A stretch of 64,000 nucleotides of DNA from Niveispirillum lacus. Its GTDB lineage: Bacteria; Pseudomonadota; Alphaproteobacteria; Azospirillales; Azospirillaceae. The position numbers and the translations under genes were made by a program. The notes beneath the pieces were generated by a model. That model was not told the DNA's origin. It saw nothing but the letters and a program-made list of their open reading frames with translations, and made no database searches. The stretch spans positions 434,001-498,000 of the forward strand of contig NZ_NOXU01000030.1 of assembly GCF_002251795.1 (NCBI RefSeq), read 5' to 3'. Below, piece after piece: positions 46,295-61,275 of this stretch. Position 1 is the first letter of the stretch. The number at the start of each line of letters is the position of its first letter.

Positions 46295-48064
46295 ATGAAC
46301 GGCTTTCAAACCTTGTTGGAACAGTACGCCATGGTCACGCCCACCCCCTCTAAGCATGCGCTTTCCTCCCGTCTGGCGGATTTCGCCACGGTGCCGGAAG
46401 CGATCACTTATGCCGCTAAGGGGGAGACCGGTCTGAATTTCTATTCCGGCAAGGGTGAACTGACCGAAGCGCTGCCTTACAGTCAGATGTATGACCAGGG
46501 TGTTGATCTGGCGAGGCGCATGCTGGCCAAGGGGCTGGTGAAGGGCGATCGTGTCGCCATCATCGCAGAAAGCGATGGCGATTTCATGCGGGCCTTCACC
46601 GCCTGCCAGTTTGCCGGCCTGGTTCCGGCCCCGCTACCGCTGCCAGCAGCGTTTGGCGGCAAGGATGCCTATATCGACCATATCCGCCGCATGATGCAGG
46701 GGGCGGATGCTGCTGCCGTCTTGTCGCCGGCGTCTTTGAAGGATTGGGTGCTGACGGCGGCTGATGGGTTGGGGATGAAGGCGGTGGGCACGCTTGCCGT
46801 GTTCGACGATGTCGATGGGGCCGGGATTACCCTGCCGACCGTGGGCCCTGACGATCTCTGCTATCTGCAATTCTCTTCCGGCAGCACCCGCTTTCCGCTG
46901 GGCGTGGCGGTGACGCAGAAGGCGCTGATGGCCAATGCCCATGCCATTACCCATCACGGGCTGAAGATCACGGCGGCCGACCGCTGTGTTTCGTGGCTGC
47001 CGCTCTATCACGATATGGGGCTGGTCGGCTTTTTGCTGACTCCGCTGGTCTGCCAGGTTTCCATTGATTATCTGCCGACCCGTGAGTTTGCCCGCCGGCC
47101 GCTGTTGTGGCTGCACCTGATCACCCGCAATGGTGGCACCCTGTCCTATAGTCCCAGCTTCGGGTACGAACTGGCCGCCCGGCGGGCGGAAACCGCATCG
47201 ACGGAAGGGATTGACCTGTCCACATGGCGCGGGGCTGGTATCGGCGGTGATATGGTTCGTCCCCGCGTGCTGCGTAAATTTGTCGACGCCTTTGCCCCCC
47301 GCGGCTTTCGTCCCGGTGCACTTGTTCCCTCTTATGGCATGGCCGAAGCGGCGCTGGCCTTGTCCTTCGCGCCGCTGGGCGTTGGTCTTGTCACCGACCG
47401 CGTTGATCTGGACAGGTTGGAAGGCGACGCGGTGGCCGTGCCGCCAGGGCCGCAGACGGCGCGTGAACGGGAATTTGTCCTCAACGGCCCGATCCTGCCC
47501 GGTCACGCGATTGAGGTGCGGGACCCCGACGGCAGTTTGCTGGGCGAAAAACAGGTGGGGCGCCTGTTCGTCCGGGGGCCCTCGCTGATGCGGGAATATT
47601 TCAACCGGCTGGAAGAAACCGCTGCTGTGCTGTCGGCCGATGGCTGGCTGGATACGGGTGACCTCGGCTATCTCTGCCAGGGCCAGATTGTGATCACGGG
47701 TCGGGCCAAGGATCTGATCCTGGTTAATGGCCGCAACATCTGGCCACAGGATCTGGAATGGTCGGCCGAACATTCCATCGACAGTTTGCGCAGCGGTGAC
47801 GTTGTCGCCTTTTCCGTCGATGGCGATGGCGGGGAACAGGTGGTGGTGCTGGTGCAGTGCCGCCCGACCCAGGAAGAGGCGCGCGCCGCCCTGGCGGCAC
47901 AGGTACAAGGTGTACTGCGCGCCGCTCACGGGCTGGAGGTGAAGGTGGTGCTGGTCCCCACCCATTCGCTGCCCCAGACATCATCCGGCAAACTGTCACG
48001 CACCAAGGCACGGCAGATGCTGCTGGCTGGTGAGTTCGGCGCCAACGCCATGCTGTCCGCCTGA
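46295..48064 (+). CDS. Fatty acyl-AMP ligase / acyl-ACP synthetase
   Basis: A 589-residue adenylate-forming enzyme of the FAAL type that activates a fatty acid with ATP, here probably to load the dedicated ACP downstream for sphingolipid synthesis. It has YLQFSSGSTRFPLGVAVTQ (P-loop), SWLPLYHDMGLVGFLL, PSYGMAEAALAL, DGWLDTGDLGYL, GRAKDLILVNGRNIWPQDLE and the C-terminal Lys in TSSGKLSRTKAR. Caulobacter carries an acyl-CoA/ACP synthetase in its ceramide locus. A different-frame ATG with a stronger Shine-Dalgarno (46276, 25 codons) overlaps this start. ATG 46331 is an alternative start. Confidence 0.88.
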   Translation: MNGFQTLLEQYAMVTPTPSKHALSSRLADFATVPEAITYAAKGETGLNFYSGKGELTEALPYSQMYDQGVDLARRMLAKGLVKGDRVAIIAESDGDFMRAFTACQFAGLVPAPLPLPAAFGGKDAYIDHIRRMMQGADAAAVLSPASLKDWVLTAADGLGMKAVGTLAVFDDVDGAGITLPTVGPDDLCYLQFSSGSTRFPLGVAVTQKALMANAHAITHHGLKITAADRCVSWLPLYHDMGLVGFLLTPLVCQVSIDYLPTREFARRPLLWLHLITRNGGTLSYSPSFGYELAARRAETASTEGIDLSTWRGAGIGGDMVRPRVLRKFVDAFAPRGFRPGALVPSYGMAEAALALSFAPLGVGLVTDRVDLDRLEGDAVAVPPGPQTAREREFVLNGPILPGHAIEVRDPDGSLLGEKQVGRLFVRGPSLMREYFNRLEETAAVLSADGWLDTGDLGYLCQGQIVITGRAKDLILVNGRNIWPQDLEWSAEHSIDSLRSGDVVAFSVDGDGGEQVVVLVQCRPTQEEARAALAAQVQGVLRAAHGLEVKVVLVPTHSLPQTSSGKLSRTKARQMLLAGEFGANAMLSA

Positions 48065-48066
48065 TC

Positions 48067-49011
48067 ATGGCGCTGGCCGCCATCACCGGTGGCACCGGCT
48101 TTCTGGGCCGCTACATTGTGGCGGCCCTGCACCGCGCCGGTTTTGGCGTGCGGATGCTGGTGCGTCAGGACTCTGTGCATCCGCTGCTGGCCGATCTGCG
48201 GCCAGAACTGGTGCTGGGTGACCTGCATGATGACGCGGCCCTGGCCCGGCTGGTAACGGGGGCGGATGTCATCATCCACGCCGCGGGCCTGATCAAGGCC
48301 AGGGACCGGGCGCAGTTCTTCGCTGTGAATGAAGGCGGGTCTGCCCGCGTGGGCCGGGCGGTCGCGGCCCATGCCCCCGGCGCCCGCCTGCTGGTGATCT
48401 CCAGTCAGGCCGCGACACAGCCGCACCTGTCCCACTATGCCGCCAGCAAGCGGGCAGGAGAGGTTGCCGCCATTGCTGCCTATGGTGGGGACGACTGGTG
48501 CATTGTGCGCCCGCCGGCCATCTACGGTCCCTGGGACCGCGAAACCCTGTCCCTGTTCAAGGCGGCGGCTGGCCCCGTGGTGCCGGTCCTGGGGGGGCGC
48601 GATGCGCGGCTGGCCATGATACAGGTCGACGATGCCGCCGCCGCCATCGCCGCCCTGGCCGCCCCTGGTGGGCCCTGTGGGCAGTCATTTGGCCTGTGTG
48701 ACGGGGTGACGGGCGGTTACGACTGGACCAATATCCTGGATTGTGCCGCCGATGCCCTGGGGCACCGTGCAGCCCGTGTCCGGGTTCCCGTGCTGCTGTT
48801 GCGGGCCATCGGGCTGGGCGGCAGCATCACCGCGGCGCTGACAGGTAAAGCCGTCATGCTGACCTTGCCCAAGACGCGGGAGATCACCCATGCGGACTGG
48901 TCCCTCGCGTCGCAGCAGATGCCGCCTGAATCGCTGTGGAAACCCCGCGTGGGGCTGCGGGAAGGCTTTGCCGGTGCGGCAAAATGGTACCGTGATCATC
49001 GCTGGATATAG
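48067..49011 (+). CDS. cerR: NAD(P)-dependent epimerase/dehydratase, ceramide reductase (CerR)-like
   Basis: A 314-residue extended short-chain dehydrogenase. It has the Rossmann motif ITGGTGFLGRYIVAALHRAGF, ADVIIHAAGLIKA, and the catalytic pair Tyr124-Lys128 (HYAASK). It starts 2 bp after the acyl ligase stop and precedes acp-spt. In Caulobacter the equivalent gene, cerR, reduces the keto group of N-acylated 3-ketosphinganine to give dihydroceramide. I assign the same role by context plus family; sequence alone would only say SDR. Confidence 0.85.
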   Translation: MALAAITGGTGFLGRYIVAALHRAGFGVRMLVRQDSVHPLLADLRPELVLGDLHDDAALARLVTGADVIIHAAGLIKARDRAQFFAVNEGGSARVGRAVAAHAPGARLLVISSQAATQPHLSHYAASKRAGEVAAIAAYGGDDWCIVRPPAIYGPWDRETLSLFKAAAGPVVPVLGGRDARLAMIQVDDAAAAIAALAAPGGPCGQSFGLCDGVTGGYDWTNILDCAADALGHRAARVRVPVLLLRAIGLGGSITAALTGKAVMLTLPKTREITHADWSLASQQMPPESLWKPRVGLREGFAGAAKWYRDHRWI

Positions 49012-49222
49012 CGATCTGAACAAAGTTCGCTTCAAACTGTTGCGAATTTACCCGTCCCTGTGTCATCTGTCACAGGTGTTTCATGCATTTTGTGGTTTGC
49101 TCTTGCTTCCTACTGCGTTGCAACTACCTTACCGGAACGTGACGCTTTAAGGACAGATGTCGGGGGGCACCGGCATCTTCGCAACTTCAACAATCTGTAC
49201 GACTGGTTACCGGGGCGCTTTA

Positions 49223-49474
49223 ATGACTACCGACGTCAACGACATCGTCGAAACCATCATCGCCGCCCTTGTAAAGACCTTGCCAACGCCGGTCACCGTT
49301 ACGACGGAGACCAGCATCACGCGTGATCTCGGCCTGGACAGTCTGGCCGTTATGGATTTCGTGATGGTGCTTGAGGATCAGTTCGATGTCTCGATCCCGA
49401 TGGAACGGATCGCAGAGGTCGAAACCATCGGCGACTTGGCCAGGACCATATCGGAACTCCGGGGGCACGCCTGA
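49223..49474 (+). CDS. Acyl carrier protein dedicated to sphingolipid synthesis
   Basis: An 83-residue ACP with the phosphopantetheine site DLGLDSLAVMDF (Ser40). It starts 210 bp after cerR and ends 3 bp before spt. In Caulobacter an ACP beside spt supplies the acyl thioester to serine palmitoyltransferase, so this should carry the fatty acyl group loaded by the upstream ligase. ATG 49223 follows GGGGCG; the frame's upstream codons do not resemble an ACP. Confidence 0.92.
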   Translation: MTTDVNDIVETIIAALVKTLPTPVTVTTETSITRDLGLDSLAVMDFVMVLEDQFDVSIPMERIAEVETIGDLARTISELRGHA

Positions 49475-49477
49475 GCC

Positions 49478-50695
49478 ATGACGATCCTTGCCAAGTACAC
49501 AAAACTCCGTGAGCATTACCACCGCATCGCCGGCGCTGGCCGTGATCCGTTCACGGTGAAGTTCGACGCCATGCTCTCCCCGACGGAGGGTATGCTGAAC
49601 GGTCGCCGCACGATCCTGCTCGGCACCAACAATTATCTGGGCCTGACCTTCGATCAGAGCTGCATCGACAAGGGTGTCGAAGCGCTGAAATCGTTCGGCA
49701 CCGGCACCACCGGTTCGCGGATCGCCAATGGCAGTTACGATGGCCATGCGGCGCTGGAACGTGAACTGGCCGCTTTTTATGGCCGTGAAAGCTGCATGGT
49801 CTTCACGACCGGCTATCAGGCCAATCTCGGCATTATTTCTACGCTGGTTGGTAAGGATGACCTGCTGTTCCTGGACAGCGACAGCCATGCCAGCATTTAT
49901 GATGCGGCCAAAATGACCCCGGCCCAGGTCATTCGGTTCCGTCACAATGATCCCGAAGACCTGAATAAGCGTCTGCGCCGCGTCGCCGATCATCCCGGCA
50001 ACAAGCTGGTGGTGGTCGAAGGCATCTATTCGATGCTGGGCGATGTGGCTCCGCTGAAGGAATTCGCCCAGGTCAAGCGGGAGAATGGCGTTTATCTGCT
50101 GGTGGACGAAGCCCATTCCATGGGTGTGCTGGGGGAAACCGGCCGTGGTCTGGCGCAGGAAGTGGGCGTTGAGGATGATGTCGATTTCATCGTCGGCACC
50201 TTCTCCAAGAGCTTGGGTGCGGTCGGCGGTTTCTGCGTCTCCGACCTGCCGGACTTTGACGTGATGCGGGTGGCCTGCCGCCCCTACATGTTCACGGCCT
50301 CGCTGCCGCCCTCGGTCATCGCCACCTGCCTGCGCTCGCTGGAGCGGTTGCAGGAAGAGCCGGGTCTGCGCCACAAGCTGATGGCCAATTCCAAGCGTCT
50401 CTATGACGGCCTGCGTAATCTGGGTTTCCAGGTGGGGCCGGATGTCAACCCGATCGTGGCGGTGTCCTTGCCGTCGATCGAATTGGCGATCACCTTCTGG
50501 AACCGTCTGCTGGAAGAGGGGCTGTATCTGAACCTCGCCTTGCCGCCGGCGACCCCCAACAGCCAGTCGCTGCTGCGCACCTCTGTCAGTGCAGCCCACA
50601 CGACCAAGCAGATCGACACGGCCATCGAACTGTTCGCTAAGGTGGCCCGGCAGTTGGGCGTGCAGCCGGCCCTGGTCCAGACTGCGGCCGAGTAA
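49478..50695 (+). CDS. spt: Serine palmitoyltransferase
   Basis: A 405-residue PLP enzyme of the alpha-oxoamine synthase family that condenses serine with an acyl thioester to 3-ketosphinganine, the first committed step of sphingolipids. Conserved features include LLGTNNYLGLT, SRIANGSYDGHAALE (His stacking on PLP), VDEAHSMGVLGETGRG and the PLP Lys244 in GTFSKSLGAVGG. The family also includes KBL and AONS, but the adjoining ACP, ceramide-reductase and ceramide synthase genes fix the role as SPT. It starts 3 bp after the ACP. Confidence 0.95.
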   Translation: MTILAKYTKLREHYHRIAGAGRDPFTVKFDAMLSPTEGMLNGRRTILLGTNNYLGLTFDQSCIDKGVEALKSFGTGTTGSRIANGSYDGHAALERELAAFYGRESCMVFTTGYQANLGIISTLVGKDDLLFLDSDSHASIYDAAKMTPAQVIRFRHNDPEDLNKRLRRVADHPGNKLVVVEGIYSMLGDVAPLKEFAQVKRENGVYLLVDEAHSMGVLGETGRGLAQEVGVEDDVDFIVGTFSKSLGAVGGFCVSDLPDFDVMRVACRPYMFTASLPPSVIATCLRSLERLQEEPGLRHKLMANSKRLYDGLRNLGFQVGPDVNPIVAVSLPSIELAITFWNRLLEEGLYLNLALPPATPNSQSLLRTSVSAAHTTKQIDTAIELFAKVARQLGVQPALVQTAAE

Positions 50696-50760: not shown

Positions 50761-51384
50761 TCAGGTCGGTACCCGCCACAAGGTGGCCAGCCAGTTCTGC
50801 TGATACCGGGGCTGCCCCTCCGGGCGGCGCCATTCGTCGATCAGGCAAAAACCCGCTGCCTTGACCGCGGCTTTCCAGCTTTGTGGACGGCGGAAGGCCA
50901 GATAACGCCCGTCCGGGGCCATGCCCTCCAGACCGTCGCCCACCGGATCACAGGCATAGAAAACCCCGCCTGGCCGCAACCAGCCGTGAAGGCGCGACAG
51001 GACAAAGGGCAGGGCGGCGCTGGGCAGATGGAAAAACAGATGATGGGCCCAGACCCCGTCAAACGCGGCCGCCTCCCAGGGGACGGGATCGGTTGACAGC
51101 AGGTCTACCACCTCCACGCTGCATCCTGTGCGCTCAGCCGCGATCAGGGCCAGGGCGGCGCTGCCATCGGCGCCGATGACCTCTGCTCCGGCATCGCGGA
51201 ACCCGATCAGGTCGCGCCCGCCACCGCAGCCCAGGTCGAGAAGGCGCAATGCCGTACCGCCCACCTGGGCCAGAAACCGGTGACGGGCGGTGGCGCTGTC
51301 ATGATCGGCCAAAAGATCGGCATAGTGCGCGGCATGCGCCTGATAGTGGGCAAGTGTGGGGTTCGCTGTGACCCGTCCCGTCAC
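50761..51384 (-). CDS. Class I SAM-dependent methyltransferase in the sphingolipid locus
   Basis: A 207-residue methyltransferase. The SAM loop is LRLLDLGCGGGRDLIGF, the acidic strand is EVIGADGSAA, then AFDGVWAHHLFFHLP and LRPGGVFYACD. I chose GTG 51384 because it overlaps the upstream stop (GTGA), while the longer frame lies inside the neighbouring gene. It is last in a minus-strand unit with the nucleotidyltransferase, kinase and CDP-alcohol transferase genes. It may methylate a headgroup, but many such small enzymes have other targets. Confidence 0.78.
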   Translation of the reverse strand: MTGRVTANPTLAHYQAHAAHYADLLADHDSATARHRFLAQVGGTALRLLDLGCGGGRDLIGFRDAGAEVIGADGSAALALIAAERTGCSVEVVDLLSTDPVPWEAAAFDGVWAHHLFFHLPSAALPFVLSRLHGWLRPGGVFYACDPVGDGLEGMAPDGRYLAFRRPQSWKAAVKAAGFCLIDEWRRPEGQPRYQQNWLATLWRVPT

Positions 51385-52316
51385 CGGATGGCCCCCATCC
51401 GTTTCAGCTTCCACAGGATATAGGGGGCACACAGGATCGGGTGGCGTCGTTGCCAGGGGGTGAGGTCCAGACGTACGCCGGAATGGCGGTGCAGTTTCCA
51501 CAGCAGGTAATCCACGCCGCCGGTGAAGGTAAAGGCGGCCTTGACCAGACGGGCGATGTTCAACCCCTTGCCGAACCGGCCGCGCCAGCGCCAGGCGCGG
51601 TCTCCTCGGGCACGGCGGGCCGGCGACAGCAGGGGCCGCAGACGCCCGTCGCCGATCTCCTCAAAGGCGACGCTGGCCGATGCCCAGGCCGGTGGCAGCA
51701 GGGCGGCATAGCGGTCGGCGGCGTGGTCGACGATGCTGATCCCGCGCGACGCCTTCTCCACCCGCAATTCGGCGCTGTAGGTGGCCTTGAACAGGGCCTC
51801 CCAATAATCCCTCGCCATACCCTCCGCCGGACCTAGAATCGCGGCCCAGCGCGCGGCGGTGGTCACGGCTTGCGCCACGGCATCGCGTACTGTCTGCCGT
51901 GCCGTTCCATCGCGTGCATGCGCCAGCATCACCGGTTGGGTGAACCGGGCCCAGATGGTGGTGTCGATGCAATCGAACCGGGTGGCGTTGGCGAACTGGT
52001 CGATACCCATCACCGCCACCTTGGCGCGCAGCGTATGGCCCTGCCAGGGAATTTCCCAATATTCCACACTGGGCGGCAACAGCCTGGTGGCCAGTGCCAG
52101 CGGCCGACTGCCCCGCCACCCGGTCAGACTGTCAACCAGCACATAGAAATCCAGCACCCCCTCCACATCCCCCGACCGCAGGTTGGAGCCATAGAACAGG
52201 ATGGCCGCCACATGCGCGCCGCCATGCGCCACCAGGGCGGCGACCAGGGCGGCGGCGGGGTCGGGCAGGCTGGTGTTCCATTCCTGCTCGATCAGGGTGG
52301 AAAGCGGCTCGGTCAC
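51381..52316 (-). CDS. Tam41-like nucleotidyltransferase (putative CDP-lipid synthase)
   Basis: A 311-residue protein with a nucleotidyltransferase-like site: ILFYGSNLRSG (Gly43-Ser44) followed by LDFYVLVD (Asp56...Asp62). This order resembles Tam41/Mmp37, the mitochondrial phosphatidate cytidylyltransferase (YGSG...DF-x-x-x-VD), and the following EYWEIPWQGHTLRAKVAVMGIDQF parallels Tam41's substrate region. It lies between a lipid kinase gene (GTGA overlap) and a methyltransferase gene (GTGA overlap). I infer CTP-dependent activation of a phospholipid acceptor, perhaps ceramide-1-phosphate. The family call is from pattern recognition and needs a profile search. Confidence 0.55.
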   Translation of the reverse strand: MTEPLSTLIEQEWNTSLPDPAAALVAALVAHGGAHVAAILFYGSNLRSGDVEGVLDFYVLVDSLTGWRGSRPLALATRLLPPSVEYWEIPWQGHTLRAKVAVMGIDQFANATRFDCIDTTIWARFTQPVMLAHARDGTARQTVRDAVAQAVTTAARWAAILGPAEGMARDYWEALFKATYSAELRVEKASRGISIVDHAADRYAALLPPAWASASVAFEEIGDGRLRPLLSPARRARGDRAWRWRGRFGKGLNIARLVKAAFTFTGGVDYLLWKLHRHSGVRLDLTPWQRRHPILCAPYILWKLKRMGAIR

Positions 52317-53263
52317 GGCTGGACGAAACGGATGCGGTCTGGGGCTGACAGGATGACACGGCCCGCCGGATAGGTCTCCCCATCCATGATCAGCGGCCGG
52401 GTCAGGCGCAGTTCGATCTGGTCTGCCCCGCCGGACCGGTAGGCACCGGTGCGGCGCATCGCCATACTGGGCCGCCCCGTCATCAGGCGCGGCAGCGCAC
52501 CCAGCAGGCCGGGCGGGTTCGCCGCCACATCCAGAAAGCGCAAGGGTTTGGTCCCCTCGTCCCAGAAGGGCCATAGGCCCAGGATCAGCTTGTCGAGTGT
52601 CGTGGCCAGGAACAGGAAACGGTTGCCGTCCTCGGCCGGAAGCTGATCGACAGTCGCACCCAACACTTCACCCGCCAGCCAGCCATGGCTGTCATTGCCG
52701 ATCAGGGCGCGGCCCAGAACACCGGCCATGGTCAGAGCCACGGCGATCTCCTGGGTGAAACCCGCCTTGTGGATGGCGGCATTGGCCAGATCGGTACCAC
52801 GGGTGAAGGCGCCAGCCCCCATGAACATGCCGCGCACGGGCCTGTGTTCGCCGTCCGGCCAATGCAGCGACAGGACAGGGCGTTGTGTCATGCGTGTGCC
52901 TAGTGTCCCCTCATGGGCTGCCCGCACCAGTCCGGCCAATCCCCGCGGCCCATATCCGGTGGTGCCGACATCGGCGGCAATCAGATTGGTTTTGCCTGCC
53001 GCCAGTATGGCCAGCGCGGGTGGTGCGGCACCATAGGCCGGCGGAAGGGCCGTCAGCACTTCCCGCACGGTCCCGTCGCCACCATCGACCGCGATGATGT
53101 CCACCCCGCTGTCGGCAAAGCCGCGCAAGACCTGCACCAGCTTTTCCGGCGTATCGGGGGCGGCCACATGGGCCCCGAACAGGCGCGCAGCATCGGCGGG
53201 CAGGGTATCGTTGCCTGCCTTGTTTCGATGGCTGAACGGGTTCCGGATGAGGCCGGGGATCAT
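52313..53263 (-). CDS. Diacylglycerol kinase-family lipid kinase, CpgB-type ceramide kinase candidate
   Basis: A 316-residue DAGK_cat-family enzyme. The nucleotide site is VDGGDGTVREVL (GGDGT, residues 61-65), with NPFSHRNK at the N-terminus, LAILAAGKTNLIAADVG and a late DGETYPAG. Caulobacter makes ceramide phosphates with CpgB, a kinase of this family in its sphingolipid locus. The position here among ceramide genes makes ceramide the likely substrate (inference). I start at ATG 53263; the frame to 53356 is not convincing. It follows the CDP-alcohol transferase by 143 bp and overlaps the next gene by 4 bp. Confidence 0.82.
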   Translation of the reverse strand: MIPGLIRNPFSHRNKAGNDTLPADAARLFGAHVAAPDTPEKLVQVLRGFADSGVDIIAVDGGDGTVREVLTALPPAYGAAPPALAILAAGKTNLIAADVGTTGYGPRGLAGLVRAAHEGTLGTRMTQRPVLSLHWPDGEHRPVRGMFMGAGAFTRGTDLANAAIHKAGFTQEIAVALTMAGVLGRALIGNDSHGWLAGEVLGATVDQLPAEDGNRFLFLATTLDKLILGLWPFWDEGTKPLRFLDVAANPPGLLGALPRLMTGRPSMAMRRTGAYRSGGADQIELRLTRPLIMDGETYPAGRVILSAPDRIRFVQP

Positions 53264-53406
53264 GATTGATGGCCCCCGGTGCGATTTCGCGCGGATGGTG
53301 GTGCCGAGCCTGCGGATGCAGGCCCCGGCACTGGCGGGGCGGAAGATGCTGACCAAGGGTCAAGATCTTCCGGCGATGATACAAGACCCAGGCGCGCCAT
53401 GACGGA

Positions 53407-54594
53407 TCAGGCAGACAGGTAAGACGTGATGGGGCCCTTTTTGGAGGCCTGCTCCGCCTGGATGATCTGCGCCATATGCACACCGAAACAGGCAACGATC
53501 CAAACGATCATCAGGGCCATGCCGATATCCGGGCGGCCCAGCAGGGTGGCCAGGGTCAGGATCACCAGATTGGGGTTACGCCGCGCCGTAATCAGTCGGA
53601 AAAAACTGTCGAACGGCCGCCAGGTATGCATGTCCAGATTGAAGCGCTTCAGGAAATAGCCTTCCTGCAGACGTTGGGACACATAGCCTACCCAGATAAT
53701 GACAATGGCGGCCGTTTCCCAGCCCCAGAGTGTCAGGCCCGCTGCCGACAGACCGGCAACCCAGGCCCACCACCAGAACGGTGGATGCACCAGATCAATG
53801 CCATGGTCGAAAATATTGCCCCATTTGCTGCTGGTCAGGGTGACGCGCGCCAGCTTGCCATCCACCGTATCCAGAAAGGTCATGATCCAGCCGGCAGCCA
53901 GACCCGGCAGGTAATGCCCTTCCGCGAACAGCCAGAGCGCCAATAGCATCAAGATGGCGCCGATACCGGTGACCATGTTCGGTGACAGGCCGATCACGGC
54001 GCACAGCTTGGTCACATGGCGGGCCGGCAGCGGCCAGACATATTTTGTCACCACATCGGTGACGCCCTTGTAACTGCCGGCGAACATGCGCTGCTCGATC
54101 CTGGGCAGTGCTTCCGGTGTCAGGCGCAGCAGGAACGGTGTCTCCCGTTTGCGCAGGGCGTGGTTATAGGACGATGACAGGTCATCGGGCACCAGCACGC
54201 GCAACCGTTCCGCCATTTCAGCCGGGACGACTCGGCTGTTGTTCAGCATCTGGGCAACCTCTGCCGCCTCGTCCGCGGCGACATGGGCTGCTACCGGTTC
54301 TTGGTTGCGGCTGTCCACCAGGATGGTGCCGGGGCGCTTGGCGAGATCGCGCACCAGAACTTCATCAAACACCCAGTCGGTGCGCAGCAAAAGATGGGCA
54401 CGGCCCTGGTCCTGCCCGTCCCAGGCCCGCACCTCCGTCACCCCGTTGCGCACACATTGGCGGCGCAGGCGTTCGGCGGATGTCATACCCCATAGGCGGA
54501 CCGGGTTATCGCCGATGGTGGCGGCCAGGGGCGGGGGGGTGTGTGCGGGATTGTTCTGGGCGGCGTGCGTGTCGGCGGACAAGGTATGAACCAT
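53407..54594 (-). CDS. CDP-alcohol phosphatidyltransferase with N-terminal nucleotidyltransferase-like domain
   Basis: A 395-residue membrane enzyme. The C-terminal part (about 190-390) carries an intact CDP-alcohol signature: D242-x2-D245-G-x2-A249-R250-x8-G259-x3-D263-x3-D267, with about six helices. Residues 25-150 form a soluble domain (GMTSAERLRRQCVRNGVTEV, LLLRTDWVFDEVLVRDLA) resembling a degenerate sugar-nucleotidyltransferase. Fusions of the two domains are known in inositol-phosphate lipid synthases. It would join a phosphorylated headgroup to a CDP-activated lipid, or the reverse. It heads the minus-strand unit and diverges from the phosphoesterase gene. Confidence 0.85.
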   Translation of the reverse strand: MVHTLSADTHAAQNNPAHTPPPLAATIGDNPVRLWGMTSAERLRRQCVRNGVTEVRAWDGQDQGRAHLLLRTDWVFDEVLVRDLAKRPGTILVDSRNQEPVAAHVAADEAAEVAQMLNNSRVVPAEMAERLRVLVPDDLSSSYNHALRKRETPFLLRLTPEALPRIEQRMFAGSYKGVTDVVTKYVWPLPARHVTKLCAVIGLSPNMVTGIGAILMLLALWLFAEGHYLPGLAAGWIMTFLDTVDGKLARVTLTSSKWGNIFDHGIDLVHPPFWWWAWVAGLSAAGLTLWGWETAAIVIIWVGYVSQRLQEGYFLKRFNLDMHTWRPFDSFFRLITARRNPNLVILTLATLLGRPDIGMALMIVWIVACFGVHMAQIIQAEQASKKGPITSYLSA

Positions 54595-54677
54595 GATCAG
54601 GTGATTTTCTTGACCGTCTACATACTCCCTGACGCGGGCTTTGCCTATCGCCCGTAAGGCATTGTAGCTTGCCTTTC

Positions 54678-55592
54678 ATGCAGCCCTATCGTTTTGCCCA
54701 TCTGTCCGACCCGCATTTGCCGCTGGCACCCGACCGACCACGGGGGCTGCAATGGCTGTCCAAGCGGACCTTGTCTTATCAATCCTGGCAGCGCCGACGC
54801 CGCTATGCCCACACACCCGCCATGTTGGGCGCCATCGTGGATGATATCCGGGCACATCAGGTGGATCATTGGGCGGTAACAGGGGATATCGCCAATATCT
54901 CCTTGCCCGGCGAGTTCCGGCGGGGGGCCGATTGGCTGCGTTCCCTGGGGGATGGGCGTCAGGTGTCTTATGTGCCCGGCAACCATGACGCCATGGTGCC
55001 CGTGGACTTCGCCGATGGTCTTGGCCTGTGGGCCGACTATCTGCGCGGGGATGGGCAGGGGGAAGTGTCGTTTCCCTACCTGCGACAACGCGGGCCGGTT
55101 GCCTTCATCGGGGCCAATTCCGGCGTGCCGACCGCGCCTTTGCTGGCGCAAGGCCATCTGGGTCCTGAACAGCGGGAGCGGCTGGGCGACATGCTGGCTG
55201 ATGCGGCGCGGCGCGGGCTGTTCCGGGTGCTGATGGTGCATCATCCCGTGGCTGAAGGGGTGGTTTCCAGCCGCAAGGGCTTGACCGACCGCCACAATCT
55301 GCGCGACCTGCTGGCCCGGACGGGGGCAGAACTGCTGCTGCATGGTCATGCCCACAGGGCCAACCTTTCCATGATCCGGGGGCCGCTGGGTCCGATCCCC
55401 AGTCTCACCGCCCCGTCGGCATCGGCCATCGGCTATCATCATGATATGCCGGCCCGCTGGCACCTTGTGACGGTGGACACAGACGGGCCGGACTGGCAGG
55501 TGCAGGTGGAAGTGCGCGGCGTTGAAAGCCAGGGCACGCCAGTCAAGGCCCTGGGCGGTTGGCGCCTGCGGCTGCCCGTCGCGGGGGCCTGA
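54678..55592 (+). CDS. Calcineurin-like metallophosphoesterase
   Basis: A 304-residue phosphoesterase with all metal motifs: FAHLSDPH (Asp11, His13), VTGDIANIS, VPGNHD, MVHHPV and LHGHAHRA. It diverges from the CDP-alcohol transferase and heads the plus-strand group that includes ceramide synthase. A plausible job is dephosphorylating a lipid intermediate such as a phosphoglycerol-phosphate headgroup, or a regulatory nucleotide (inference). ATG 54678 is preferred; a TTG nine bases earlier is possible, and neither has a strong Shine-Dalgarno. Confidence 0.88.
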   Translation: MQPYRFAHLSDPHLPLAPDRPRGLQWLSKRTLSYQSWQRRRRYAHTPAMLGAIVDDIRAHQVDHWAVTGDIANISLPGEFRRGADWLRSLGDGRQVSYVPGNHDAMVPVDFADGLGLWADYLRGDGQGEVSFPYLRQRGPVAFIGANSGVPTAPLLAQGHLGPEQRERLGDMLADAARRGLFRVLMVHHPVAEGVVSSRKGLTDRHNLRDLLARTGAELLLHGHAHRANLSMIRGPLGPIPSLTAPSASAIGYHHDMPARWHLVTVDTDGPDWQVQVEVRGVESQGTPVKALGGWRLRLPVAGA

Positions 55593-55676
55593 CTGGCGGG
55601 GCAATAATGGTGGTTCCGGTCACCTTCGTTCCGCTCTAAAGTGCCCGTCCTGTTCACCTGTCGAGTAGCGCAACCG

Positions 55677-56123
55677 ATGACCCTGCCCAATGCCACCATG
55701 CTGAAATTCGGCTATCCGGCCAGCACCGTGGCGGAAACGGCACTGTGGTCGGTTCAGGTGCGGCCGCAGCAGCCGACTTTGGGGGCCCTGGTTCTGGTCT
55801 GCAAAGAACCGGTCACTGCCTTCGGCCAGCTCAGTCCCGCTGCCTTTGCCGAACTGCAAACCGTGGTGGCGCGGGTGGAACGGGTGCTGGCCCGCTTTAC
55901 CGCCTATCAGAAGATCAATTACCTGATGCTGATGATGGTGGACCCTGACGTGCATTTCCATGTCATCCCCCGGTATGAGGGGGTGCGGGACTATGCGGGC
56001 ATCCCCTTTGCCGATGCCGGCTGGCCGGGACCGCCTGCCCTTGCGCAGGCCGTGACCCTGGATAGCGGTGCCATAGCGGGCATCACCGCCGATCTCAAGG
56101 CCCTGTGGGTGGATGTGCCGTGA
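55677..56123 (+). CDS. HIT family protein
   Basis: A 148-residue histidine-triad nucleotide hydrolase/transferase-type protein. The motif is DPDVHFHVIPRYEG, with two of the triad histidines in HFH, and the preceding KINYLMLMMVDPD fits the family. HIT proteins cleave or transfer nucleoside phosphates; in this locus it could turn over a nucleotide-lipid or nucleotide-alcohol by-product (inference). I chose ATG 55677 over a GTG at 55641. Its stop overlaps the LptF-like GTG start (GTGA). Confidence 0.85.
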   Translation: MTLPNATMLKFGYPASTVAETALWSVQVRPQQPTLGALVLVCKEPVTAFGQLSPAAFAELQTVVARVERVLARFTAYQKINYLMLMMVDPDVHFHVIPRYEGVRDYAGIPFADAGWPGPPALAQAVTLDSGAIAGITADLKALWVDVP

Positions 56124-57370
56124 ACGGTGTCGTACCGCCGCCTGACCGGCATTACAAACTGCATTCCACCCGGCTGATCGACCGCTATATCCTGGCCGAG
56201 ACGCTGAAACCGCTGTTTGCATCGCTGCTGGTGGTACTGGTTGCGTTGCTGATGGAACGGCTGTTGCGGCTGTTCGACCTGCTGGCCAATCATGGCGGCC
56301 CGTTCGATATGGTCATCCGGCTGGTAGCCAATCTGGTGCCGCATTATCTGGGTCTGGCCCTGCCAGCGGCCTTTTTCATCTCCATGTTCATCATTGTCGC
56401 CCGGATGGGGGAAGATAATGAACTGGATGCGCTGCAATCCGCTGGTCTGTCGGTGCCGCGCATCGCACGGTCCTTTGTCGCCCTGGGCATGGCGCTGATG
56501 GTATTTTCCATCATCCTGTTCGGTTATCTGCAACCCTATGGCCGATATGGCTACAGCGCGATTTACCACATGGTGGTCAATGCCGCCTGGAACGCCACCG
56601 TACCGCAGGCCAGCTTTGTCGACGCCGGTGAGGGGGTGACCATTTCTGCCGATATGGTCGATGTCACCGGCCGTCGGCTGGAAAAGGTCTTTGTGCAGCA
56701 GGACCGTGACAATGGCGAACGCTGGGTGACCACCGCCGTCACCGGCGCCCTTGCCGCCAGCCCCGATCGGCAGCGCGTCCTGTTGACCTTGCATGATGGT
56801 GTGCAGGTGCGTTTGCTGCCGGATGGTCGGCGGCAGGTGATGGAATTCGCAGAACTGACCCTGGACAAGCCATTCCGCATGGTCACCGAACCGTTCCGTG
56901 AACGCGGCGGCAGCGAACGTGAACTGACCCTGCATGAGCTATGGTCGGAAATGCACGACCCGCAATCGATCCTGCCCCATGCCAAGGTTGCTTCCGAACT
57001 GCATGCGCGGTTGGCGCGGGCTCTGTCATTGCCGCTGCTGCCGTTGCTGGCGGTGCCCATGGGCATGGCGGCCAAACGTGCCCGGCGCGGGCAGGGGATC
57101 GCACTGGCCACTGTCATTTTGATCCTGTACCACCATCTGGTGCAATTGGGGGAAAGTCTGGGCGATGTCGGCCGCCTGTCGCCGGTCGTCGGGATCTGGG
57201 TGCCCTTTGCGCTGTTTTCCCTGCTCTGTGCTTGGTTATTCCATCGTGCCGATATCCGGCCGGGTGAGAATCCCTTTGCCGCCATGTTCGATACCATTGA
57301 TGCGGCTACCGGATTTGTGAAACGCCTGTTCCGGCGCCGCCGGAAAAAGCCGGAAGGGGGCAGGCCATGA
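56120..57370 (+). CDS. LptF/LptG-family permease (first of a pair)
   Basis: A 416-residue YjgP/YjgQ permease. The N-terminus is RLIDRYILAETLKPLFASLLVVLVALLMERLLRLFDLL, LPAAFFISMFIIVARMGEDNELDALQSAGLSVPRI matches LptF, a periplasmic jelly-roll middle follows, and C-terminal helices include LSLPLLPLLAVPMGMAAKRARRGQG. In the Lpt machine, LptF and LptG with LptB extract LPS from the inner membrane. Here the pair is embedded in a ceramide gene cluster without lptD or surA, so it may move sphingolipids instead (inference). GTG 56120 overlaps the HIT stop; the upstream frame lies inside it. Confidence 0.92.
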   Translation: MNGVVPPPDRHYKLHSTRLIDRYILAETLKPLFASLLVVLVALLMERLLRLFDLLANHGGPFDMVIRLVANLVPHYLGLALPAAFFISMFIIVARMGEDNELDALQSAGLSVPRIARSFVALGMALMVFSIILFGYLQPYGRYGYSAIYHMVVNAAWNATVPQASFVDAGEGVTISADMVDVTGRRLEKVFVQQDRDNGERWVTTAVTGALAASPDRQRVLLTLHDGVQVRLLPDGRRQVMEFAELTLDKPFRMVTEPFRERGGSERELTLHELWSEMHDPQSILPHAKVASELHARLARALSLPLLPLLAVPMGMAAKRARRGQGIALATVILILYHHLVQLGESLGDVGRLSPVVGIWVPFALFSLLCAWLFHRADIRPGENPFAAMFDTIDAATGFVKRLFRRRRKKPEGGRP

Positions 57371-58446
57371 ATCGCAGCACGATCACCCGCTACCTGACCC
57401 GTACCTTCCTGATGCGTGTGCTGTCGGTGCTGATTGCCCTGTCGGCCCTGTTGCAGTTGCTGGACCTGCTCGATGCTGCCTCTACCGTGCTGGAACGTGG
57501 GCTGGGTGGTAGTGGCCTGATCTATTACACCATGATCCGCCTGCCCATGGTTGTGGAACGGGTGGTGCCGCTGGCCGTGCTGATCGGTTCGCTATCCACC
57601 TTGTGGACCTTTGCATCAACCAATGAAATCGTGGCCATGCGTTCGGTCGGCATGACGCCGTACCAGATCATGGGCGCGCTGCTGCCAGCCGCCCTGGTCG
57701 TGGCCCTGGCCCATTTCATCCTGGCCGATCAGGTGGCGCCGCGTGCCGAGCGCAGTTTTGTCACCTGGTGGGCTGCGACCGAGCTGCCATCAGAGGCGAA
57801 GAAGGACGATCCGGTGAAACCGGTCTGGTTCCGGCTCGGGGATGATGTGGTCCGCATCGCCGCCATTGCCGATGATGGCCGCACGATCGAGGGGCTGGAA
57901 ATGGTCAGCCGCGATGCGCAGGGACGGGCCATTGGCCTGCTTTCGGCTGCACGCGGTGAACACCGTGCCGATGGCTGGCATCTGACCGATGTGGTCCGCA
58001 CCCGCATCGGTGAACCGCTGACTGTGACGCGGCAGGCCACGACCTTGTGGGATGTCGATCTCTCGCCCAACAATATGGTCGATCTGCGCAAACCGACGGA
58101 AAATATCTCTGTCCATCGGCTGCTGCGGATTGTGCGCGGCAACTGGGCGGGTGGCGAAAGCCCGGCCTTCTATGCCACGCGGCTGCATTCCACCTATGCC
58201 GCGCCCCTGGCCTCGCTGGTCATGCTGCTGCTGGCGGCCCCGGTTGCGCATGGCATGCGCCGGCGGGGTGGCGCTATGGGCAGTCTGGCGCTGGGCACCG
58301 TCATCGGGCTGGTCTTCCTGCTCTCCTCGGGCATCCTCAGTTCGATGGGCCAGGCGGGTGCCTTGCCAGCAGTGGTGGCCGTCTGGTCGCCCCTGATCTT
58401 CTTTGCGGCCATCGGCGGGGCCATCATGGTTTATGTGGAGGGGTAG
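57367..58446 (+). CDS. LptF/LptG-family permease (second of the pair)
   Basis: A 359-residue LptG-like permease. It begins STITRYLTRTFLMRVLSVLIALSALLQLLDLLDAAS, with IRLPMVVERVVPLAVLIGSLSTLWTFASTNEIVAMRSVGMTPYQI in the first membrane half and RLHSTYAAPLASLVMLLLAAPVAHGMRRRGG in the second. Its ATG overlaps the LptF-like stop (ATGA). The two should form a heterodimer. A 128-bp gap with two palindromes separates it from the next gene, the only sizeable break in this operon-like run. Confidence 0.93.
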   Translation: MNRSTITRYLTRTFLMRVLSVLIALSALLQLLDLLDAASTVLERGLGGSGLIYYTMIRLPMVVERVVPLAVLIGSLSTLWTFASTNEIVAMRSVGMTPYQIMGALLPAALVVALAHFILADQVAPRAERSFVTWWAATELPSEAKKDDPVKPVWFRLGDDVVRIAAIADDGRTIEGLEMVSRDAQGRAIGLLSAARGEHRADGWHLTDVVRTRIGEPLTVTRQATTLWDVDLSPNNMVDLRKPTENISVHRLLRIVRGNWAGGESPAFYATRLHSTYAAPLASLVMLLLAAPVAHGMRRRGGAMGSLALGTVIGLVFLLSSGILSSMGQAGALPAVVAVWSPLIFFAAIGGAIMVYVEG

Positions 58447-58464
58447 GTGCCATGCGCACCCACA

Positions 58465-58497
58465 ATGCCGCAATGCGGCATGGCTCTTGAAGCCATG
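58465..58497 (+). promoter_or_regulatory. Two back-to-back palindromes in the lptG-hydroxylase gap
   Basis: ATGCCGCA-A-TGCGGCAT (58465-58481) is immediately overlapped by CATGGCT-CTTGA-AGCCATG (58479-58497). Both have perfect arms. They may be an operator for a second promoter or an intercistronic mRNA structure that sets different levels of transport and synthesis genes. Confidence 0.45.
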
Positions 58498-58574
58498 GCC
58501 TGTCAGGCCTAATTTGACGCCACGATCAACCGGCCCGCAAGGCCGCATGAACGACTTTCGGAAAGGGTAGGGGC

Positions 58575-59357
58575 ATGTGGGGCGATGCCTGGCGCGGCCG
58601 CAGCTATGACCTCGGCAAGATGAACCTGCGGGATTTGGCGATTGCCTATTCCACATACCCGGCGATCCAGGCCTATGCGGCCCTGGCGCTGGTATCGGCG
58701 GTGCTGGCCGTGATCTGGACGGAGAATTGGGGCCGGATGGCGCTGACCGTGCTGGTGGCGACCCTGATCTATCCGATGGCCTGGTATCTGATCCATCGTT
58801 TCATTCTGCATGGCCGCTGGTTATACCGCATGAAATGGTCTGCCGCCCTGTGGAAGCGTATCCATTTCGATCATCATCAGGACCCGCATAAGCTGGAAGT
58901 GCTGTTCGGCAGCTTGGCCAACACCCTGCCGACGATTGCCCTGGTCACCGTGCCTGTCGGTTACCTGGTTGATGGCAAGGCGGCTGCGGCGACGGCGCTG
59001 GCCACCGGTCTGGTCACCACCTGCATCTATGAGTTTTTTCACTGCATTCAGCATCTGAACTACAAGCCGACCTGGAACTGGGTGGCCCGGATCAAACAGT
59101 TGCACCTCTATCATCACTTCCACAATGAAGACGGCAATTTCGGCATCATTTCTTATGGTCCCGACATGTTGCTGGGCACCTTCTATCGCGAAGCCCGGCA
59201 AAAGCCGCGCAGCCCGACGGTGTTCAACCTGGGTTATGATGTGGAAGAGGCAAAACGCTATCCCTGGGTGATGAACCTGACCGGCGCGCCGCCGCGTGAC
59301 CGTCCGCCGCGCCCGCCGGCCAGCGGCAACAGCGACAGTGTGAAGGCTGCATCTTGA
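58575..59357 (+). CDS. Fatty acid hydroxylase / sterol desaturase superfamily protein
   Basis: A 260-residue membrane di-iron oxygenase with four His clusters: LIHRFILHGR, IHFDHHQDPH, EFFHCIQHLNY and LHLYHHFHNE. This is the fatty acid hydroxylase superfamily, whose members hydroxylate or desaturate lipid chains using oxygen. Its place directly before the ceramide synthase (TTGA overlap) argues for hydroxylation of the long-chain base or acyl chain of ceramide (inference). The start is ATG 58575 with AAAGGG upstream. The tail is Pro-rich. Confidence 0.88.
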   Translation: MWGDAWRGRSYDLGKMNLRDLAIAYSTYPAIQAYAALALVSAVLAVIWTENWGRMALTVLVATLIYPMAWYLIHRFILHGRWLYRMKWSAALWKRIHFDHHQDPHKLEVLFGSLANTLPTIALVTVPVGYLVDGKAAAATALATGLVTTCIYEFFHCIQHLNYKPTWNWVARIKQLHLYHHFHNEDGNFGIISYGPDMLLGTFYREARQKPRSPTVFNLGYDVEEAKRYPWVMNLTGAPPRDRPPRPPASGNSDSVKAAS

Positions 59358-60508
59358 CCGCGGCGGCGGGCGGGGACGCCACGATCCGTATCGAACAGGT
59401 CGAACCCGGTTCCAAGGCGATGGATCGGTTCATCGCCCTGCCGTACCGCCTGCATGCCAGCGACCCGAACTGGGTGCCGCCCTTGTTGATGGAGCGACGG
59501 GAGACCCTGTCGCCCAAGACCAATCCCTATTTTCTGCATGCCGACGTCATGTATTTTCTGGCGTTGCGCGGTGACAATGTGGTGGGGCGCATCTCCGCCC
59601 AGATTGACCATGCCGGTCTGGAACTCCGCCAGGACGCCACTGGCCATTTCGGCCTGCTGGCCGCAGAGGATGACCAGGGCGTGGTCGATGCCCTGTTCGC
59701 GGCAGCCGCCGACTGGCTGCGGTCCCGTGGCATGGTGCGGATGGTCGGGCCCTTTAACCTCTCGATCAATGAGGAAACCGGCCTGCTGGTTGAGGGCTGG
59801 GACCGGCCGCCCATGCTGATGATGGGCCATGACCTGGCCTATCTGGGCCCGCGTGTCGAAGCGGCGGGTCTGGTCAAGGCCAAGGATGTCTATGCCTATC
59901 TCTATGATATCCAGGATCAGTTGCCCAAGGCGGTCCGCACCATGATCGAACGGCCTTTGCCGGCGGATCTGCGGGTGCGGATGCTGGATATGGCGCGCTA
60001 TGACCAGGAACTGGAAAGCATCACCAGCATTTTCAACAATGCCTGGTCTGGCAACTGGGGGTTCGTGCCCTTATCGGCGGCGGAAACCAAGCAGATGGCC
60101 AAGTCGCTGAAACTGCTCATCAACCCCAGGCTGGCCTGGATTGCGGAAGTCGGGGGTCGGCCCGTTGCTTTTGGTGTCTGCCTGCCCAACCTGAACGAAG
60201 CCATTGCCGATCTGGGGGGCAAACTGTTCCCACTTGGCATCATCAAGCTGCTCTGGCGGTTGAAGGTGAAGGGAGTGAAGACGGCGCGGGTGCCGCTGAT
60301 GGGTGTGCGCCGGGATGTCGGCGGTTGGCTGCAGGCGGTATTGCCCTTCCTGATCGTCGACAATATGCGCCTGGAAGCCCGCAAGCTGGGGTACCAGTGG
60401 ATAGAGCTGTCCTGGATTCTGGAAGATAACCGCCCCATGCGCCGTATCATTGAGGCGATCGGCTCCAACCGGTACAAGACCTACCGGCTTTACGAGCGCG
60501 CAGTGTGA
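59354..60508 (+). CDS. bcerS: Bacterial ceramide synthase (bCerS), GNAT-fold acyltransferase
   Basis: A 384-residue protein of the family typified by Caulobacter bCerS, which N-acylates 3-ketosphinganine or sphinganine in bacterial ceramide synthesis and is unrelated to eukaryotic ceramide synthases. The sequence starts with VEPGSKAMDRFIALPYRLHASDPNWVPPLLMERRE, and FNLSINEETGLLVEGWDRPPMLMM and NNAWSGNWGFVPLS follow; the end (YQWIELSWILEDNRPMRRIIEAIG) is GNAT-like. It starts with TTG overlapping the hydroxylase stop (TTGA), which would lower its translation relative to an ATG. It is coupled to the following nucleotidyltransferase gene. Confidence 0.88.
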   Translation: MTAAAGGDATIRIEQVEPGSKAMDRFIALPYRLHASDPNWVPPLLMERRETLSPKTNPYFLHADVMYFLALRGDNVVGRISAQIDHAGLELRQDATGHFGLLAAEDDQGVVDALFAAAADWLRSRGMVRMVGPFNLSINEETGLLVEGWDRPPMLMMGHDLAYLGPRVEAAGLVKAKDVYAYLYDIQDQLPKAVRTMIERPLPADLRVRMLDMARYDQELESITSIFNNAWSGNWGFVPLSAAETKQMAKSLKLLINPRLAWIAEVGGRPVAFGVCLPNLNEAIADLGGKLFPLGIIKLLWRLKVKGVKTARVPLMGVRRDVGGWLQAVLPFLIVDNMRLEARKLGYQWIELSWILEDNRPMRRIIEAIGSNRYKTYRLYERAV

Positions 60509-61275
60509 GCCCGATGGACACCCTTGTTCTGGCCGGTTCTCGTGGACCGGATGACCCGGTGGCCCGGCTGCGCGGGGTCAGCCATAAGGCCTTTGCGCCG
60601 ATCGCCGGGGTACCGATGCTGGTACGGGTGGTGCGGGCGCTGATTGCGGCGCCCGGTATCGGCATGATCCACATCGCCATCGAGCGGCCGGAACTGGTGG
60701 AACAACATCCGGAGTTGGGTCTGCTGCTGGCGGGCGGGCGCATCGCGCTGCTGCCGGCGGAGGGCAGCCCCAGCCGCACCGTCGCGGCGGCGCTTGATCT
60801 GCTGGGCACACCGCTGTTTGTGACAACGGCGGACCATGCCCTGCTGCGTCCGGAATGGGTGGATTATTTCCTGACCCATTTGCCGGAGAACAGCGATGTT
60901 TGTGTTGGCCTGGCCCGTGACAGCGTGGTGCAGGCTGCGGTGCCGGACACAAAACGCACCTGGTTGCGTTTTGCCGACGGGTCCTTTTCCGGCTGTAACA
61001 TGTTTGCCTTCCGCACCCCGGCGGCCCGCGCTGTGGCCCAGACCTGGCGGCAGGTGGAAGCCCAGCGCAAAAGCCCGCTGCGCATGATCCGCTTGCTGGG
61101 CCCGTTATCCATCCTGCGTTTTCTGTTGGGGCGTCTGACCCTGACAGCGGCCCTGGACCGGCTGGGTCGCATCACCGGTGCGCGCGCCGGGGTGGTGGAA
61201 ATGCCCTACGGTCTGGCGGCGGTTGATGTGGACAAGGCGGCGGACATTGATCTGGCCGAACGCCTGCTCACCTGA
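60505..61275 (+). CDS. Nucleotidyltransferase (GT-A/MobA-like), putative CTP:phosphoalcohol cytidylyltransferase
   Basis: A 256-residue NTP-transferase-fold protein. It starts MDTLVLAGSRGPDDPVARLRGVSHKAFAPIAGVPMLVRVVRAL, the usual sugar-nucleotidyltransferase nucleotide loop and Lys, and continues FVTTADHALLRPEWVDYFL for the metal-binding Asp. GTG 60505 overlaps the ceramide synthase stop. In this locus it might make a CDP- or other nucleotide-activated headgroup precursor. The activating-loop GG is altered to AGSRGP, so activity is uncertain. It resembles the N-terminal domain of the CDP-alcohol transferase in the same locus. Confidence 0.78.
   Translation: MSPMDTLVLAGSRGPDDPVARLRGVSHKAFAPIAGVPMLVRVVRALIAAPGIGMIHIAIERPELVEQHPELGLLLAGGRIALLPAEGSPSRTVAAALDLLGTPLFVTTADHALLRPEWVDYFLTHLPENSDVCVGLARDSVVQAAVPDTKRTWLRFADGSFSGCNMFAFRTPAARAVAQTWRQVEAQRKSPLRMIRLLGPLSILRFLLGRLTLTAALDRLGRITGARAGVVEMPYGLAAVDVDKAADIDLAERLLT

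Follow-up and report, generated by a model that had tools for sequence, protein, structure and literature searches.

The window, a stretch of 64,000 nucleotides from Niveispirillum lacus (contig NZ_NOXU01000030.1, positions 434,001 to 498,000; here contig C14), belongs to a genome of 4.97 Mb whose closest named relatives are mostly Niveispirillum. Its subject of interest is a four-gene unit on the minus strand (54594-50761). In order of transcription, the genes encode a two-domain CDP-alcohol phosphotransferase of 395 amino acids (53407..54594; PF01066, motif, predicted structure and synteny), which is the counterpart of CpgA (CC_1159) of Caulobacter; a ceramide kinase of 316 amino acids (52313..53263; PF00781, GGDG motif and synteny), the counterpart of CpgB (CC_1160); a Tam41-like nucleotidyltransferase of 311 amino acids (51381..52316; synteny and AlphaFold model), the counterpart of CpgC (CC_1161) and a predicted CTP:ceramide-1-phosphate cytidylyltransferase; and an accessory class I S-adenosylmethionine methyltransferase (50761..51384; PF13649/PF08241 and GTGA overlap). 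Taken together, the genes form a cpgA-cpgB-cpgC operon for the head group within a bacterial phosphosphingolipid cluster, with one methyltransferase gene in addition. An earlier, sequence-only reading of this locus had described the last three genes as joined by GTGA; the genes are confirmed at the stated positions, and the overlaps are exact at both the kinase/nucleotidyltransferase and the nucleotidyltransferase/methyltransferase junctions. The CDP-alcohol transferase gene lies outside this coupling, with 143 nt from its stop codon to the kinase ATG. In 61 of 80 loci from relatives, no more than 300 nt separate the kinase from the nucleotidyltransferase, with both on one strand, so the pairing is not due to chance; several of the remaining 19 loci either lie on short contigs or belong to clusters of the Burkholderiales type, where the nucleotidyltransferase gene instead comes after that of the CDP-alcohol transferase.

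The published counterpart is the cluster for ceramide-phosphoglycerate (CPG) and CPG2, the form with a second phosphoglycerate, in Caulobacter crescentus (CC_1152-CC_1168, with cpgA-cpgD, spt, cerR, cerS, and lptF2/G2). When 199 genomes from the family of a Phenylobacterium locus were searched with a published cpgD primer, three matched, and all three loci carry CpgD, the CC_1153-like gene, ceramide synthase, LptG, LptF, HIT, phosphoesterase, CpgA, kinase, nucleotidyltransferase, Spt, acyl carrier protein, and CerR, matching the published order of CC_1152-CC_1164 (PMC11324152). One of them, L126, has exact matches for five of the nine primer strings, so it is a close relative of the published strain, although identity with that strain is not proven. 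The window proteins are 54% (CpgA), 36% (kinase), and 47% (nucleotidyltransferase) identical to those of L126; the three are orthologous, with order and orientation as in the three Caulobacter-like loci. Of the 13 genes at the CC_1152 to CC_1164 positions in the near relatives, all except CpgD are in the window and keep their relative order. The locus therefore belongs to an already known cluster type, with one extra gene. It differs from the Caulobacter cluster in the 143-nt gap, in the methyltransferase gene that overlaps the end of the operon, in the inclusion of a fatty-acid hydroxylase, and in that CpgD is encoded on another contig (G000:C26:325477-326208, E 9.9e-76; 52% identical to Roseomonas CpgD).

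Caulobacter mutants show that CC_1160 and CC_1161 are required for CPG, while CC_1159, CC_1158, CC_1153, and CC_1152 are required for efficient production of CPG2 (PMC11324152). In Caulobacter these lipids help cells to survive without lipopolysaccharide and determine their sensitivity to polymyxin (PMC12275187, PMC11324152). CpgB has been purified and assayed as a ceramide kinase (PMC10331486). The window kinase (53263-52313) matches PF00781 (DAGK_cat) with 41.6 bits against a cut-off of 23.6, has GGDG at residue 61, and has no 19-residue window with hydropathy above 1.6; the eukaryotic CxxxCxxC motif was looked for and is absent from its sequence. The same GGDG motif and the same absence of CxxxCxxC and of a hydrophobic stretch have been described for CpgB (PMC10331486). 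Orthology to the assayed enzyme thus supports the assignment of the window protein as an enzyme that would phosphorylate ceramide, as had been proposed for a DAGK-family enzyme at this position.

The middle protein of the operon (51381-52316) has no Pfam or NCBIfam family, and sequence searches of the PDB with the window protein, with the profiles A1 and A2, and with a divergent homologue gave no Tam41 match. The likeness to Tam41 suggested beforehand was borne out by structure. The AlphaFold model, for which 65 sequences were taken solely from named loci and the window, has a mean pLDDT of 90.4, and its four top PDB chains in Foldseek are all Tam41 (E 4.4e-8 for 6ig4 to 3.4e-7, probability 1.00). 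With VIA, 229 residues of the model superimpose at 3.1 Å on bacterial Tam41 in complex with CTP-Mg (7ecd; Z 19.0), and mitochondrial Tam41 gives Z values of 16.7 (6ig4) and 16.3; the Tam41 matches cover 217-229 residues, whereas the best other folds, aminoglycoside nucleotidyltransferases, reach a Z of 7.8 and lower. PF09139 was matched at E <= 0.05 by two of 15 divergent CpgC homologues (A4): one from G579/L134, 38% identical to the window protein, scores 29.0 bits against a cut-off of 24, and one from L122 stays under it with 21.8 bits. Among 150 Pseudomonadota genomes, PF09139 found a single match, below the threshold, and this is a CpgC homologue beside a kinase. All 74 CpgC homologues compared share Y42-G43-S44, D56, K99, W122, R124, Q127, and P128, and in all of them the first nucleotidyltransferase motif has one acid (D56-x-Y58); in line with this, Tam41 is described as keeping one of three acids (PMC11646218). 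The C-terminal 81 residues hold 19 K/R and 3 D/E, a basic tail that would suit an enzyme peripherally attached to the membrane, as Tam41 is (PMC7018664). The integral-membrane CDP-diacylglycerol synthase CdsA is a poor model for the protein, which has no Pfam family and only four 19-residue windows above 1.6, the top one at residue 23.

CpgC thus appears to be distantly related to Tam41, the mitochondrial CDP-lipid synthase. It shares with the Tam41/TAMM41 CDP-diacylglycerol synthases (6ig2, 6ig4, 7ecd) the fold, the glycine-serine and single-acid first motif, and the basic C-terminal tail, but differs in its low identity, in lacking a PF09139 match in the window protein, and in its expected acceptor, ceramide-1-phosphate instead of phosphatidate. 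On the predicted structure, the window protein is a distant relative that would work like Tam41 without being a member of PF09139. The Tam41-like fold, together with homology and the step at which mutants are blocked, makes CDP-ceramide the likeliest product. The term "CDP-ceramide" was not found in any of the 5.39 million papers searched, so the statement in the sequence-only reading that no bacterial CDP-ceramide pathway is established was fair, but activation of ceramide-1-phosphate by the same gene was proposed in 2024. There, CC_1161 is said to carry an InterPro domain pointing to CDP-diacylglycerol synthase, and an "NDP-activated ceramide" made by CC_1161, with a further enzyme for the condensation, is put forward as a hypothesis (PMC11324152). 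Activation of ceramide-1-phosphate by the cpgC gene is therefore already in print as a hypothesis, and no test of it was found in the literature searched.

In a 2025 paper the conversion of ceramide-1-phosphate to CPG is drawn as one CpgC step "through a yet unidentified mechanism" (PMC12275187). CpgC could activate a soluble partner (such as glycerate or phosphoglycerate), or move glycerate directly onto ceramide-1-phosphate, with no CDP-ceramide formed; this is unlikely, though it is the likeliest of the alternatives. Besides the single step kept in published schemes, the failure to find a separate transferase and the rank of aminoglycoside nucleotidyltransferases as the next best folds agree with it. 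Against it stand the wide lead of Tam41 in Z and in residues covered, the basic tail, which suits a membrane-bound lipid phosphate, and CpgD, which already covers soluble activation: in vitro, the Caulobacter enzyme makes CDP-glycerate (PMC12275187), and its crystal structures are available (PMC13228409). Direct condensation has also been called energetically not very favourable (PMC11324152). It is quite improbable that CpgC is a second CDP-diacylglycerol synthase serving phosphatidate-derived lipids, with an indirect link to sphingolipids. The matched Tam41 structures are named CDP-diacylglycerol synthases and CpgB also phosphorylates diacylglycerol in vitro (PMC10331486), but the gene stands beside the ceramide kinase in the 61 loci given above, inside sphingolipid clusters, its loss in Caulobacter abolishes both CPG and CPG2 (PMC11324152), and phosphatidate levels are reported as unchanged on deletion of cpgB (PMC10331486).

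The remaining enzyme of the operon, CpgA, matches PF01066 with 36.0 bits (cut-off 22). Its CDP-alcohol phosphotransferase motif, which had been called intact, is complete (DTVDGKLARVTLTSSKWGNIFDHGID); the pattern DxxDGxxARx(8)GxxxDxxxD (D..DG..AR.{8}G...D...D) starts at residue 242. The predicted structure (pLDDT 88.2) resembles AF2299 (4o6m/n) over 315 residues with a Z of 24.2 and IPCT-DIPPS (4mnd) with a Z of 22.2, proteins with which it shares an NTP-transferase-like N-terminal domain and a CDP-alcohol phosphotransferase membrane domain. IPCT-DIPPS is named as a user of CDP-L-myo-inositol, a water-soluble CDP-alcohol; CpgA differs from these two in its expected donor, CDP-glycerate, and its expected acceptor, a lipid.

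Among 289 alphaproteobacterial genomes, the nucleotidyltransferase is found in 33 (a further match, in G519 at 3.9e-4, was left out), CpgA in 19 (leaving out 40 other genomes with matches, the best at 2.2e-11), and CpgD in 19 (leaving out 29 others, the best at 7.8e-25). The CpgA and CpgD genomes are the same 19 and are nested within the 33. The other 14 nucleotidyltransferase genomes, twelve of which are at least 97% complete, lack both, and none of them has a CpgA match even at E <= 0.001. Five of these 14 loci were inspected: three (L131, L133, L135) hold ceramide clusters that lack CpgA but are otherwise complete or nearly so, L134 has a cluster in whose stretch no kinase is seen, and L132 has the kinase and nucleotidyltransferase only. 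The 19 genomes fall into 14 family labels and the 14 into eight, with one label in common; because of this dependence among the genomes, the Fisher value of 1.2e-9 makes the association look stronger than it is. A genome-wide check that took the genomes of 40 of the 80 loci gave a similar result: a clear CpgD (E <= 1e-36) accompanies CpgA in all 22 where CpgA is clear, and the 16 without a clear CpgA, including G084 (24 bits only), have no CpgD better than 4.7e-18. Two genomes are exceptions: the myxobacterial bin G121 has CpgA and a CpgD at only 32% identity (8.6e-23), and in G106 a contig edge carries an incomplete CpgA, with CpgD matching at 2.3e-10. Where no CpgA is present locally (26 loci), the whole genome was searched for it in 21 cases; L026, L059, L068, L075, and L093 were left out. 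The E-value thresholds were chosen after gaps in the E-values had been seen.

The identity of the CpgA and CpgD sets, together with the 14 genomes that have the nucleotidyltransferase alone, indicates that CpgA goes with CDP-glycerate. In line with the published mutants, CpgA almost certainly acts in a different and later step, the addition of a second phosphoglycerate from CDP-glycerate to CPG. A linear route had been proposed beforehand, in which the kinase and the Tam41-like enzyme are followed by this CDP-alcohol transferase making a ceramide-phospho-alcohol from CDP-ceramide; the first two steps are well placed. The third is very improbable, for although the genes are adjacent, the motif is complete, and in 16 of 80 loci (mostly Burkholderiales) no more than 300 nt separate the CDP-alcohol transferase and nucleotidyltransferase genes, CpgA is missing from the 14 genomes and present exactly where CpgD is, two isolates near the organism of the window (L028 and L030) keep the kinase, nucleotidyltransferase, and methyltransferase with no CpgA in the genome, and CC_1159 is reported as dispensable for CPG in Caulobacter, where complementation without it restored CPG (PMC11324152). 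CpgA as a consumer of CDP-ceramide was rejected on these grounds. The opposite order, CDP-headgroup plus ceramide, had also been suggested; the donor is right for CpgA, but the acceptor would be CPG rather than ceramide. In Burkholderiales-type clusters, a second CpgA-like CDP-alcohol transferase (31-39% identical) is found between ceramide synthase and LptG (L020, L041, L043, L044, L047, L051, L062, L066, L073, L081, L087, and L101), and is a candidate for another head-group step.

The scheme that is probably correct as a whole begins with CpgB, which would phosphorylate ceramide as shown for its Caulobacter orthologue. CpgC, a peripheral Tam41-type nucleotidyltransferase, would then most likely transfer CMP from CTP to ceramide-1-phosphate to give CDP-ceramide. 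A separate transferase, possibly a housekeeping CDP-alcohol phosphotransferase, would exchange CMP for glycerate or phosphoglycerate and so yield CPG. CpgD, encoded elsewhere in the genome, would supply CDP-glycerate, which CpgA would use to add the second phosphoglycerate, a step supported by the Caulobacter mutants and by the co-occurrence found here. The methyltransferase may decorate the head group.

Several observations weigh against CDP-ceramide as the product and the scheme built on it. PF09139 is missed by the window protein and by all 65 A2 and 17 A1 members, identity to the Tam41 structures is just 12-13%, and a shared fold does not reveal the substrate. The Caulobacter CC_1161 mutant is described as accumulating ceramide moderately (PMC11324152); in the literature searched, no report of ceramide-1-phosphate build-up in that mutant and no enzyme assay of CpgC were found. 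No dedicated CDP-ceramide transferase emerged. The scheme also leaves unexplained the CC_1153-like gene, which tracks the nucleotidyltransferase and not CpgA/CpgD (32 of the 33 genomes, some matches being only 29-37% identical) and so sits uneasily with its published role in CPG2 only.

The balance tilts towards the wider statement that the CpgC family is a bacterial Tam41-type CDP-ceramide synthase; many Proteobacteria and some myxobacteria would then make their sphingolipids by way of a lipid activated with CDP, just as glycerophospholipids are made. The kinase and CpgC would form a module of their own, kept more widely than the head-group-extending module of CpgA, CpgD, and perhaps HIT, and the CDP-ceramide:glycerate transferase would be a separate enzyme. 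The Tam41 fold makes CpgC, the mechanism of which was called unidentified in 2025, testable at once as a CDP-ceramide synthase, and the co-occurrence result singles out CpgA as the enzyme not to pair with it.

Within the order, 14 of 82 genomes carry the added methyltransferase (E <= 1.5e-48, which leaves out two weaker matches); it occurs in nine of the 80 named loci. It stands beside the nucleotidyltransferase in 13 of those 14 genomes, and was not found beside it in five of the 18 nucleotidyltransferase genomes of the order. A strict tie between the two was rejected, since G055 has the methyltransferase with no nucleotidyltransferase and with no sphingolipid gene within about 10 kb. The enzyme may modify the head group or a related substrate; the carboxyl or hydroxyl of the head group is a guess. 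The HIT gene is present in 14 of the 19 CpgA genomes and in none of the 14 nucleotidyltransferase genomes without CpgA. Here too a strict tie was rejected, as three Phenylobacterium genomes (G090, G091, G095) have HIT in the locus and neither CpgA nor CpgD. CC_1157 has been called probably unrelated in the literature; a nucleotide intermediate on the way to CPG2 may be the substrate of the HIT protein.

The minus-strand unit is flanked by plus-strand genes on both sides. The ceramide backbone operon (46295-50695), in which the order matches CC_1162-CC_1164 of the Caulobacter relatives, consists of open reading frames named by synteny with PMC11324152: a fatty acyl-AMP ligase (AasR, 46295-48064), CerR (48067-49011), an acyl carrier protein (ending at 49474), and serine palmitoyltransferase (49478-50695). 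The run from 54669 to 61275 encodes a CC_1158-like metallophosphoesterase (54669-55592) and a CC_1157-like HIT protein (55641-56123), both by Pfam and syntenic position; LptF2 (56105-57370) and LptG2 (57367-58446), by syntenic position; a fatty-acid hydroxylase (58575-59357), by Pfam; a GNAT-like ceramide synthase (59354-60508), by Pfam and syntenic position; and, directly after it, a MobA-like nucleotidyltransferase (60505-61275; PF12804), the counterpart of CC_1153, 45% identical to the gene at the CC_1153 position. This last gene was considered as CpgD and rejected, as synteny identifies it as the CC_1153-like gene and CpgD is a separate gene in the Caulobacter-like loci. The 377-amino acid protein encoded at 45045-46178 matches no Pfam or NCBIfam family and no PDB sequence convincingly, but it recurs near ceramide clusters of several proteobacterial classes.

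Large parts of the sphingolipid cluster are carried by IncP-type plasmids in two loci, Diaphorobacter pDCB2 (L020, typed conjugative) and Pseudomonas pPNP1 (L023, typed non-mobilizable), which suggests that the sphingolipid trait may move between species. A Myxococcales contig (L083:4257-9406) has a compact cassette with, in order, the CC_1153-like gene, the kinase, CpgC, CpgA, and a divergent CpgD.

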